In this document: positions 50,196 through 52,781 of the stretch, piece by piece
How the letters are laid out: each line of letters opens with the position of its first letter
Numbering within the stretch: the stretch's first letter is position 1
Source: Actinomyces succiniciruminis
GTDB taxonomy: Bacteria; Actinomycetota; Actinomycetes; Actinomycetales; Actinomycetaceae
Assembly (NCBI RefSeq): GCF_900002405.1
Contig: NZ_LK995461.1
Coordinates: forward strand, 5,361-58,179
Direction of reading: 5' to 3'
DNA: 52,819 bases
Notes under the pieces: generated by a model
What the model was told of the DNA's origin: nothing
Database searches by the model: none
What the model saw: only the letters and a program-made list of their open reading frames with translations
Position numbers and translations under genes: made by a program

Positions 50196-51191
50196 ATGAG
50201 CGAGCGGCAGGCGTCGGAAGGCAACCGATCCACACGGCGCGGTGGTCAGAGCCCCACGGGCCCGGCCGCCACCAGTTGGATGGAGGTCGTGCGCCTGCGC
50301 ACACTGCCCGCTGCCGTCGCCCCGGTCATTCTCGGCGCCGGTGCCGCCGCGGCCCTGGGCGGTTTCTCGCTGGTGCGCACCCTGCTGGCCGCGGGCGTGG
50401 CCCTGGCGCTGCAGATCGGCTCCAACCTGGCCAACGACTACTCCGATGGCGTGCGCGGCACCGATGATGACCGCACCGGTCCGCCCCGGCTCACCGCCTC
50501 CGGCCAGGTCGCTCCGCGCCGCGTGAAGTACGCGGCCTTCGGGTGTTTCGGCCTTGGCGCGCTGTTCGGACTGGCCCTCGTGGCGCTCTCCGGTCAGTGG
50601 TGGTTGGTGGCAGCCGGCGCCGCCGCGGTCGCGGCCGCCTGGTTCTACACCGGCGGCTCCCACCCGTACGGCTACATGGGACTCGGCGAGGTCTTCGTAT
50701 TCATCTTCTTCGGGCTCATGGCCACCGGCGGCACCGTGTACGTGCAGACCGGGAGCGTGCCCGGGTGGGTGTGGCTGGCCGCGAGCGGGATCGGCCTGAT
50801 CGCCTGCTCCCTGCTGATGGTCAACAATCTGCGGGACATCGACACCGATCCGCAGCACGGCAAGCGCACACTGGCGGTGCGCCTGGGGGAGCGCGGCGCG
50901 CGGCGGGCCTTCGTCGTCATGGTGTGTACCCCGGTGGTGATGGCCGTCCTCGTGCCGGTCTGGGCGCGCGCCGACCTGACTGCGGGGGCAGCGGAGCCTG
51001 GCTCGGTGTGGAGGCTGCTCGCCCTCGTCGCGGTGCTGCTCGTGGTGCTTACCGCCATGGCTGCTCGCACGCTGCGGCCGGTGCTGGCCGGGGCCACCGG
51101 CCGGGCGCTGATCCCCGCGCTGCGCGACGCCGGTCTGTACGAGCTGGCCTACGGCGTGGTCCTGGCCGTCGCCCTGGTCGCGCTGGTGTGA
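50196..51191 (+). CDS. menA: 1,4-dihydroxy-2-naphthoate polyprenyltransferase
   Basis: MenA attaches the isoprenoid tail to dihydroxynaphthoate in menaquinone synthesis, in the membrane. The 331-residue UbiA-family protein has about eight to nine transmembrane helices. The first Asp-rich prenyl-diphosphate motif is NLANDYSDGVRGTDDDR, and the second is NNLRDIDTDPQHGKRTLAVRLG. VVRLRTLPAAVAPV is the usual MenA N-terminus. GGAGAAAGG precedes the ATG; longer upstream frames are not family-like. Confidence 0.93.
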   Translation: MSERQASEGNRSTRRGGQSPTGPAATSWMEVVRLRTLPAAVAPVILGAGAAAALGGFSLVRTLLAAGVALALQIGSNLANDYSDGVRGTDDDRTGPPRLTASGQVAPRRVKYAAFGCFGLGALFGLALVALSGQWWLVAAGAAAVAAAWFYTGGSHPYGYMGLGEVFVFIFFGLMATGGTVYVQTGSVPGWVWLAASGIGLIACSLLMVNNLRDIDTDPQHGKRTLAVRLGERGARRAFVVMVCTPVVMAVLVPVWARADLTAGAAEPGSVWRLLALVAVLLVVLTAMAARTLRPVLAGATGRALIPALRDAGLYELAYGVVLAVALVALV

Positions 51192-51217
51192 GATCGGCCG
51201 GAGTTCGGCCCGACAGT

Positions 51218-51247
51218 TTGCACGGCTCGGATCGCGAGGGCTAGCGT
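51218..51247 (+). promoter_or_regulatory. promoter of the cysteine-rich leader ORF and ABC importer operon
   Basis: TTGCAC (51218-51223) and TAGCGT (51242-51247) are 18 nt apart. Transcription would start about 7 nt after the -10, at or next to the ATG at 51255. TAGCGT at this spacing from a start codon recurs before pepO and nei. Confidence 0.6.
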
Positions 51248-51254
51248 CCGGGCC

Positions 51255-51353
51255 ATGGCTGACACTCACCTGATGACCCGGACCGCTGGCAGCGCCCAGG
51301 CGCTCGCGGTCATGTGTCAGGTGTGCATGTGTCGGTGCTGTCAGGCACGCTGA
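51255..51353 (+). CDS. leaderless cysteine-rich leader peptide (32 codons), probable cysteine-responsive attenuator
   Basis: A short ORF begins 7 nt after the -10 box TAGCGT, with no ribosome site, so the ATG is at the very 5' end of the RNA. The last thirteen residues are MCQVCMCRCCQAR: five cysteines (21, 24, 26, 28, 29) and two methionines (20, 25) just before the stop. Leaderless short ORFs with Cys runs upstream of sulfur-assimilation operons act as cysteine-responsive attenuators in mycobacteria: scarce Cys-tRNA stalls the ribosome and raises expression downstream. Here a 249-nt leader follows, then an SsuA/TauA-type binding protein gene. The role is inferred from position and composition. 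Confidence 0.7.
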   Translation: MADTHLMTRTAGSAQALAVMCQVCMCRCCQAR

Positions 51354-51433
51354 CCCTGTCCGTGAGGCGCGACGCCCGCCGCTAGCCCGACTCAACCCCA
51401 ACTCAACTCCGCGCGACTTCTGCACCATTCGGA

Positions 51434-51446
51434 GCCCCGCCGGGGC
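51434..51446 (+). other. hairpin in the leader between the Cys-rich ORF and the ABC gene
   Basis: GCCCC-GCC-GGGGC forms a compact stem-loop. It may be one of the alternative structures of an attenuator. Further on, GAGG-AGAA-CCTC folds over the ribosome site of the binding-protein gene. Base pairing is seen; a switch is inferred. Confidence 0.35.
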
Positions 51447-51602
51447 GCATACCCGACCTGGATCGAGCGCCGCGGAAACCTTGGGACGAGCCATTGCTGC
51501 CGCCGTCCGCCTGTGCCTGACAGCGATCCTCCCTTTCGGACAACGCCATTTCCGTCCGCAGCCGCGCAACGATCACGTCGATGCGCCTTGAGGAGAACCT
51601 CC

Positions 51603-52781
51603 ATGTCCACTCCCTCCAACCCCGTCAACAACCCCGAGCACACGCCCGACTCGCCCCCCGAACCCCAGGTCGGCGGCACCCCTGATCCCCAGGCCGGCGA
51701 CGTCACCGCCGAGAACGCCGCCGACATCCTCGCCGCAGACGACACCGACGCCGCGGAGTCCTCCAAAACCTCGCGCCTTACCCGGCGGCGTTTGCTCACC
51801 GTCGGCGGACTCGCCGCCGCGGCCGTGGCCGGCGGGGCTGCCTGGCTGACCCTGCGGCGCACCAACTCCGGCGTCGTCGGCGCCGCCGAGGAGCTGCCGC
51901 TGGTCATCGGCGGCGACATCTGCGCCGCCCCGCTGTACGCCGCCTACCACCAGGGCTACTTCGACGACGCCGGCCTGAACGTCACCCTCGCCCGCACCCA
52001 GCGCACCGAGGACACCAAGGACGCCCTCAGCGCCGGGAAGTACATCGGCGCCCCCGGCATCTTCTTCTCCTGGCTGGAGCCCATCTACAACGGCATCAAC
52101 GCCAAGCTGACCGCGGGCTTCCACTCCGGCTGCCTGGAACTCGTGGTCAACAACGACTCCCCGATCTCCTCCTACGCGGACCTGAGGGGCGCCACCATCG
52201 GCGTTCCCTCACTGTCCTCCTCGGCCTTCGCCTACTTCTCGATCGGCCTGGCCAAGGCCGGTATCGACGTGGACCCCGAGCACGGCGACATCACCTGGAC
52301 CACCATCGACGAGGACTCCCTGGGCACTCGCCTGACCAACGGCGACGTCGACGCCATCATGGGCTCCGACCCGGCCCCGCTGCTGCCCGTATTCAACGGC
52401 ACCGCCCACGTGATCGAGTCCAACGAGTCCGAGCCCTTCTGCTGCTCGGTGGCCCTGAACGGCGACTTCGTCGCCAACCGACCCGACGACGCCAAGGCAC
52501 TGACCGAGGCGTGGCTGAAGGGCTCGGACTACCTGGCCGCCTCCGAGGCCAACCGCAAGGAGATCGCCAAGCTCGAGGTCGACAACAACTACGTGGCCGC
52601 CGATCAGTCCCTGGTGGAGCAGGTGCTGGAGACCTACGGCTGGGAGGCCTCGGCCACCGCCTTCCGCGAGGCCATCGAGCCGGGTATCGAGGACTTCAAG
52701 CTCACCGGCTACATCGACTCCAGCATCTCCGCCGCCGAGCTCGCCGACACCGTCTACGCGGACCTGGGGATCAACCGGTGA
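51603..52781 (+). CDS. ABC transporter substrate-binding protein, NMT1/SsuA/TauA family
   Basis: This 392-residue exported binding protein delivers a small substrate to an importer. The N-terminus is long and acidic/Pro-rich, followed by a twin-arginine-like signal (TRRRLLTVGGLAAAAVAGG, about residues 60-80). The mature part shows ICAAPLYAAYHQGYFDDAGLNV, the lobe-1 start of NMT1-like proteins, DLRGATIGVPSLSSS, and DAIMGSDPA. Relatives bind alkanesulfonates, taurine, nitrate or thiamine precursors. The cysteine-rich leader ORF upstream favours a sulfur compound. GAGGAG precedes the ATG. The next gene overlaps its stop (GTGA). Confidence 0.85.
   Translation: MSTPSNPVNNPEHTPDSPPEPQVGGTPDPQAGDVTAENAADILAADDTDAAESSKTSRLTRRRLLTVGGLAAAAVAGGAAWLTLRRTNSGVVGAAEELPLVIGGDICAAPLYAAYHQGYFDDAGLNVTLARTQRTEDTKDALSAGKYIGAPGIFFSWLEPIYNGINAKLTAGFHSGCLELVVNNDSPISSYADLRGATIGVPSLSSSAFAYFSIGLAKAGIDVDPEHGDITWTTIDEDSLGTRLTNGDVDAIMGSDPAPLLPVFNGTAHVIESNESEPFCCSVALNGDFVANRPDDAKALTEAWLKGSDYLAASEANRKEIAKLEVDNNYVAADQSLVEQVLETYGWEASATAFREAIEPGIEDFKLTGYIDSSISAAELADTVYADLGINR

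Follow-up and report, generated by a model that had tools for sequence, protein, structure and literature searches.

A cysteine-codon leader ORF and its long-range RNA partner form a candidate attenuator upstream of an ABC importer operon in Actinomyces

Introduction

In Mycobacterium smegmatis, the Cys codons of a leader pair at the downstream ribosome site, and, unless a ribosome is stalled, this site is sequestered by the mRNA structure. The leaderless polycysteine short ORFs of mycobacteria, which Canestrari and colleagues are said to have described in 2020, reportedly act by attenuation via the speed of the ribosome on the Cys codons. As far as the accounts in PMC9031893 and PMC13236596 go, M. 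smegmatis controls leaderless Cys ORFs or Cys genes by attenuation, and PMC9094748, in the part that concerns them, treats Cys-rich short ORFs as regulatory. In its section on such leaders, a survey of 2005 lists Cys-run leader peptides in Mycobacterium, in P. acnes (cys operon) and in B. longum (cbs), describes them there without conserved hairpins and leaves their mode of action open (PMC1262725). Elsewhere in the same text comes the LEU element, located upstream of leuA in Actinobacteria, in which the Shine-Dalgarno box is the direct pairing partner of the Leu codons and for which the authors, in that passage, doubted a role of leader translation (PMC1262725).

Here we describe a leader of this kind at the end of a 52,819-nt stretch of the Actinomyces succiniciruminis genome (contig NZ_LK995461.1; hereafter the window). 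Positions 51218-51602 probably constitute a cysteine-responsive attenuator that would switch the importer operon downstream on when cysteine is short. As in the mycobacterial polycysteine leaders, a short, predicted leaderless ORF carries near its stop codon a conserved Cys cluster, which in all 28 loci counts 2-6 Cys. The Cys leaders of the 2005 survey, as that section presents them, also share with it a short upstream ORF whose Cys codons lie close to its stop, and the lack of an intrinsic terminator (PMC1262725).

Results

A predicted leaderless ORF with clustered Cys codons precedes the importer operon

On the forward strand, a putative promoter at 51218-51247, based on sequence and conservation, consists of TTGCAC (51218-51223), 18 nt and TAGCGT (51242-51247). 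It lies 7 nt ahead of an ATG at 51255, at which transcription is predicted to start. This ATG opens a 32-codon, predicted leaderless ORF (51255-51353; MADTHLMTRTAGSAQALAVMCQVCMCRCCQAR, stop TGA) with Cys at codons 21, 24, 26, 28 and 29. After 249 nt (51354-51602) follows the first gene of the ABC operon (51603-52781, forward strand), which has a Shine-Dalgarno sequence GAGGAG at 51590-51595 and encodes an NMT1/SsuA-like substrate-binding protein (SBP) carrying, by eye, a Tat-type signal. The genes for the permease and then the ATPase lie beyond the window, 3′ of the SBP gene (about 2065-2952 and 2956-3870 of L002), and menA is the gene upstream of the locus. The promoter spacing, the 32-codon ORF and the 249-nt gap that an earlier note on this DNA had listed are all literally present in the sequence.

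Of the 484 ORFs of 15-120 aa in the window, the leader alone has at least five Cys within nine residues, and the TAnnnT box 6-7 nt ahead of an ATG is found at 8 of the 1143 ATGs of the window compared with all 28 orthologous leaders. A strict sigma-70 scan detected no promoter at the leader, so that the predicted promoter rests on conservation. The peptide matched no Pfam family and, at E<=10, no NCBIfam family, a search in which the HMMER filters may lose short peptides; this includes the Cys-rich leader peptide models that NCBIfam presumably contains. Rfam yielded no match at gathering score in the window, the best E for the segment 51150-51650 was 4.8, and no intrinsic terminator was found at 51190-51700.

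The leader is conserved wherever the importer is retained

A close SBP ortholog (E<=1e-154) was present in 28 of 49 genomes of the genus, most others having a distant match only; at E<=1e-40 the same 28 were recovered among 213 genomes of the family and none in other genera. In named records, the importer protein occurs in 17 Actinomyces loci, including A. oris, naeslundii, johnsonii, dentalis, gerencseriae and ruminicola, and shows 98% identity to the A. glycerinitolerans counterpart. Comparison of the 28 importer loci (L003-L030) located the leader ORF in every one of them, 187-327 nt from the SBP gene and 32 codons long in 20 loci, 31 in five and 39 in three. The -10 box TAnnnT was likewise present in 28/28 loci, at 7 nt from the ATG in 27 and 6 nt in one, and TTG was found in the -35 zone of 21.

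The number of Cys residues per leader was two in one locus, three in five, four in four, five in 12 and six in six; L014 is the one with two Cys only, and L027 ends in CRPY. Cys26 and Cys29 were kept in all 20 leaders of 32 codons. The earlier note had held that its idea would fail if close relatives kept the operon and lost the Cys run; this does not occur, all 28 leaders containing Cys. Cys codons were mostly TGT in the leaders (92/129) and rarely in the SBP gene (4/117, with 113/117 TGC), a bias with a Fisher p of 1.5e-31 that is computed over codons of related loci and hence not independent.

Short ORFs are abundant in such DNA, as the 484 of the window illustrate, and a Cys run could in principle arise by chance in a GC-rich intergenic region. 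Against this stand the conservation in 28/28 loci and a start geometry that has stayed fixed while the spacer has largely diverged, and we give a chance origin practically no credence. The improbability of the Cys run that had been claimed from the window alone is borne out by its uniqueness among the 484 ORFs and the retention of a Cys-containing leader in every locus. The view of a Cys-run leader of a presumably leaderless type preceding an ABC operon in an Actinomyces gains support from the same 28 loci and their start geometry.

A further alternative is a function of the peptide itself, as a small Cys-rich protein for metal or redox binding, to which RNA pairing would be secondary. The conserved Cys pattern and length are compatible with it. 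However, codon positions 1, 2 and 3 are equally variable, which indicates no clear protein-level selection on the peptide body, no Pfam or NCBIfam family matches, and the Cys count falls to 2-3 in six loci; we consider this explanation very improbable.

A profile of 25 leader peptides (three near copies omitted) recovered all 28 loci and two further places at E<1e-4. One match (G013:C15:6910-6990, termed L079; E 8.6e-7) is followed directly by the permease gene, with no SBP gene and a degraded -10 box; the importer locus of this genome is a locus in decay. A match in genome G016 (E 1.7e-5) was rejected as a leader by inspection. The pattern TGTTGYCAGGCNYKNTGA, which excludes the TGC of the window itself, gave four matches in 213 family genomes, in other genera and with chance-like placement.

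The last Cys codons are complementary to a distant element of the spacer

The earlier note had pointed to two hairpins, one at 51434-51446 (GCCCCGCCGGGGC) and one over the ribosome site (GGAG/CTCC). Both exist in the window and neither is conserved. The first was rejected as a regulator on account of its absence from L005, whose importer protein is 93% identical, and the second because CTCC is missing in L004, whose importer protein is 98% identical.

A different structure emerged from the comparison. Sixteen loci form group A, defined by a peptide ending in CQA[RLC] or CQVR; in these, a run of 10-14 nt in the segment 79-95 of the ORF is complementary to an element located 56-123 nt before the SBP start. 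In the window, the predicted strand a comprises the last Cys codons and the following nucleotides (TGCTGTCAGGCACG, 51336-51349), and its partner a′, an anti-Cys element, lies at 51512-51525 (TGTGCCTGACAGCG), both on the forward strand. This helix a was the top-scoring helix in 15 of the 16 loci and the second in L014. With L004 and L015 left out as near copies of L003, 14 non-redundant loci remained, 12 of which gave p<=0.0133 in 300 shuffles; L017 and L030 gave 0.053-0.057. RNAalifold, unprompted, returned exactly helix a for group A and no other consensus structure, and the helix was present in the thermodynamic ensemble of 14/14 loci. The window leader itself folds with a z of -2.27, two of 100 shuffles being equally good.

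Native a:a′ partners outpaired permuted ones (p 1.5e-4 for 14 loci, 0.0012 for 9 clades). For 11 of the 14 loci the own spacer paired better than all three control stretches of the same length, the exceptions being L007, L017 and L030. For a given a-arm, between 0 and 11 of the 13 spacers taken from other group A loci equalled or outpaired the own one; foreign spacers can pair as well as the own because both strands are conserved. On the alignment of this group (A2), helix a was paired in 96.4% of cells, with 7 of 12 pairs invariant, and one position appeared as G-C in seven loci, A-U in two, U-A in two and unpaired in three. Compensatory changes accompany the predicted a:a′ complementarity in the 16-locus group.

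Two additional helices may complete the structure. Helix c lies directly inside helix a and would pair AGGCG, one unpaired base and GACG (51365-51374) with CGTCCGCCT (51504-51512); its two strands differ between loci and remain complementary, L025 for instance having GCGAGGAG:CTCCTCGC, and it gave p 0.015 for 14 loci and 0.006 for 9 clades. On A2, 67.7% of its cells pair, a low figure due in part to shifts of register. Helix b would join the nucleotides directly after the stop (TGTCCG, 51357-51362) with a strand 3′ of a′ (CGGACA, 51537-51542) and would cross the stem, as a possible pseudoknot. Its GTCCG:CGGAC becomes GTCCC:GGGAC in L017 and L030, it is missing from its usual place in L009 and has a different version in L025. 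With p 0.01 for 14 loci and 0.084 for 9 clades (one locus each), helix b is suggestive only.

Taken together, helices a, b and c were paired in 83.6% of A2 cells compared with 80.6% in shuffles, and had a covariation score of 0.115 compared with 0.078, each reached by 0 of 500 shuffles in tests that leave relatedness uncontrolled. Cells changed on both sides were reached by 1/500 shuffles; both-sides-changed pairs (36/500) and further pair types (29/500) were weakly above shuffles. Slid versions of the three helices were only 32-42% paired.

The remaining loci and the exposure of the ribosome site

The other 12 loci fall into groups B and C and comprise A. oris, naeslundii and johnsonii together with the timonensis, denticolens and gaoshouyii branch. 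They retain the leader ORF, and shuffle, RNAalifold and duplex tests established no helix equal to a in them. Two of the 12 were below 0.05 in the shuffle test (L018, p 0.007; L029, p 0.027), with helices close after the stop, and a less strict duplex test, confined to the first 110 nt, yielded a combined p of 0.16 for 8 of the 9 B loci and of 0.08 for the 3 C loci. In group B, RNAalifold proposed CCTGT:ACAGG, five pairs through which the last codons would be bound to the ribosome site.

The cost of opening the ribosome site, from secondary-structure folding only, averaged 7.3 kcal/mol with the leader free and 6.7 with it masked in the 14 group A loci, 6.2 and 6.4 in group B, and 5.3 and 6.2 in group C. 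Simple Shine-Dalgarno sequestration by the leader was rejected, the folds being unsupportive and a clear masking effect being confined to L013 and L014. In these two close relatives, the leader alters start-site exposure in the folds; nt 51-62 of their leader ORF form a perfect 12-nt complement with the importer start codon region (CGCGGTCATGGG:CCCATGACCGCG).

With little sign of a general occlusion of the ribosome site in the folds, no intrinsic terminator and a C-rich spacer, Rho or RNA stability remain as the step controlled. A translation-coupled Rho version would be one form of the attenuator rather than a reading exclusive of it: a finished leader would expose the C-rich untranslated spacer to Rho, and a stalled ribosome or an altered fold would prevent termination. 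Spacers of 187-327 nt with 32-53% C and 24-34% G, the lack of an intrinsic terminator at 51190-51700 and a ribosome-site exposure that hardly shifts in the folds are in its favour, and Rho was proposed for Cys leaders in the section of the 2005 survey devoted to them (PMC1262725). Yet C-richness is ordinary in DNA this rich in GC, and the Rho model itself does not require a conserved helix. On balance we regard a Rho mechanism as possible and somewhat unlikely.

A second Cys leader precedes a sulfite/nitrite-reductase-like operon

The same genome contains a second predicted leaderless ORF with Cys codons (MTQAHPLLAAAESRGAWLRSTRVMCCQAC; 7028-7117 of L115, on G000:C55), 7 nt after a TAGGGT box. 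It precedes a sulfite/nitrite-reductase-like gene (L115:7298-9016), for which NCBIfam gives nitrite/sulfite reductases as the best matches, none of them reaching its cut-off, and close behind which lie two genes with PAPS-reductase domains. The reductase was found in 28 of 213 family genomes, all of one genus. A leader ending in MCC[QR]A, in some cases with one more residue, was present in 28/28 loci (L121-L148), 27 by pattern plus L132, with gene starts reset for L132 and L133. Its Cys codons were TGT in 53 of 60 cases, and the -10 spacing was 7 nt in 26 loci and 6 in two. A Cys leader ahead of cysK was found in none of the 30 loci scanned, of 48 genomes having cysK.

The RNA that accompanies the reductase leader is strongly conserved. 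GCGCCTGA follows the stop in 28/28 loci, CCGGCGC is present in 27 (absent from L146) and GCGTCCGG in all 28. The distal CCGGACGC is exact in 23 loci, has one change in L132 and is absent in L126, L127, L128 and L130. In 24/24 distinct sequences the Cys codons can pair with the adjoining GCCTGA. The pairing GCGTCCGG:CCGGACGC comes with matching extensions (GGAG:CTCC, GGGA:TCCC, GGTG:CACC) and is reduced to six pairs in L126, L127, L128 and L130. By eye, five strands (the Cys codons, GCGCCTGAC, CCGGCGC, GCGTCCGG and CCGGACGC) could form a relay in which 1:2, 3:4 and 5:Shine-Dalgarno alternate with 2:3 and 4:5. The reductase Shine-Dalgarno sequence was costly to open in folds (mean 9.5 kcal/mol), with little change on masking (9.0).

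Rfam returned no match of this RNA at E<=1. An RNA model built on it (R1) found all 28 reductase loci at E<=1.2e-11. When its spread beyond the genus was examined in 394 genomes of the class, under strict filters and with 10 candidates scored per genome, it recovered one genome, which is the own one. R1 gave no match to the window leader, and we rejected the view that both leaders are the same RNA. Another R1 match (E 2.6e-4), in genome G019 (L179:937-1021; G019:C14:27936-28020), is convincing: an ORF ending in MCCRP, whose start was not placed, is accompanied by CCGGCGC, GCGTCCGG and CCGGACGC and stands ahead of an amino-acid ABC ATPase gene (GlnQ/EhuA/TcyN-like, below cut-offs). This genome has neither the importer operon nor the reductase operon. 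Of 12 further weak matches, the four inspected were chance-like.

A Cys leader ahead of a reductase of sulfate assimilation speaks for the cysteine reading. It bears on the alternative that the importer leader senses another signal through the same stall, such as general translation speed or tRNA-Cys modification. Sequence reveals codons and not the signal, and the leader Cys codons are TGT-biased, which leaves room for this alternative; nevertheless, Cys codons are what is retained, and the second such leader precedes sulfate-assimilation genes. We judge another signal to be improbable.

The substrate of the importer

The SBP, permease and ATPase scored far under the curated cut-offs of sulfonate, taurine and nitrate models: 59.3 bits for the SBP against SsuA_fam (cut-off 163.5), 75.5 for the permease against SsuC (347) and 219.7 for the ATPase against the sulfonate ATPase model (395). 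Alkanesulfonate monooxygenase SsuD (TIGR03565) was found in 0/49 genomes of the genus at E<=1e-20, so that neither the cut-offs nor an SsuD partner place the importer in SsuABC/TauABC. Regarding sulfur metabolism, cysK was present in 48/49 genus genomes and PAPS-reductase domains in 27/49, the latter in 20 of 28 genomes with the importer compared with 7 of 21 without it (Fisher p 0.01, phylogeny not controlled). A sulfur compound, as predicted in the earlier note, is a plausible substrate, mainly on account of the leader. The leader thereby offers a lead towards the substrate of a conserved importer.

Discussion

Comparison across the genus shows a conserved ORF, start geometry and Cys codons in 28 loci and a:a′ complementarity in 16; that the leader senses cysteine, and in which direction it switches, we infer. 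Judging by promoter geometry, transcription would start at the leader ATG and ribosomes would initiate leaderless. When cysteine is plentiful, the ribosome would pass the Cys codons and depart; the freed strand a would pair with a′, which starts 163 nt downstream, in a stem to which helix c would add an inner extension and pseudoknot b perhaps a lock, and the importer would be expressed at a low level. When cysteine is short, the ribosome would pause at Cys26-Cys29 and cover strand a, the long-range helix would be blocked and the importer would be made. Given the size of a ribosome footprint, a ribosome at Cys26-Cys29 should prevent helix a, since the sensor codons are one of its strands; their inclusion in the helix suggests attenuator logic in which the importer is on when cysteine is short. 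The output of the helix may be importer translation or transcription through the C-rich spacer.

The two Cys leaders share the predicted leaderless type and the recurring strands GTCCG and CGGAC, and differ in layout. The reductase leader, with its MCC[QR]A end and TGTCAGGC codons facing a GCCTGAC partner, would have this partner directly after the stop and further strands leading to the ribosome site, whereas the importer leader would have a long-range partner. It is conceivable, and we put it forward tentatively, that Actinomyces possesses a ‘ribosome regulon’ for cysteine, with the sensor codons as a strand of a dedicated RNA switch whose design differs per operon: for the importer a long-range stem plus pseudoknot acting on transcription or another step that is not simple occlusion of the ribosome site, and for the reductase a five-strand relay to the Shine-Dalgarno sequence. 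With a partner strand identified by comparison in part of this genus, whose members live in mouth and gut, and with a second Cys leader in the same genomes, the mode of leaderless cysteine sensors becomes testable.

Among known systems, the most likely reading is an attenuator that resembles the polycysteine leaders of mycobacteria, has a new RNA partner and presumably responds to cysteine. Mycobacterial leaders precede genes of sulfur or cysteine metabolism; the Actinomyces leader precedes an uptake operon, plausibly for a sulfur compound. In contrast to the ribosome-site pairing of M. smegmatis, the partner of the Actinomyces Cys codons would lie 56-123 nt 5′ of the gene start (16/28 loci), and the folds give little sign of ribosome-site sequestration of the mycobacterial type (7.3 vs 6.7 kcal/mol). 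As for the new form of attenuator predicted in the earlier note, the conserved structure is a long-range one in 16 of 28 loci and differs from the hairpins named there.

As in the LEU element, as far as its description goes, sensor codons and a downstream strand would form the base stem, with a pseudoknot within (PMC1262725). Unlike in that description, the partner strand of the 16 Actinomyces loci lies 56-123 nt before the start codon and is not the Shine-Dalgarno sequence. The Cys leaders of the 2005 survey, in the section that deals with them, stand upstream of sulfur genes and show no conserved hairpins, whereas the Actinomyces leader has, in 16 of 28 loci, a covarying partner strand (PMC1262725). 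If the regulon proposed here is real, it would supply the attenuator parts that were found missing from the Cys leaders in that survey.
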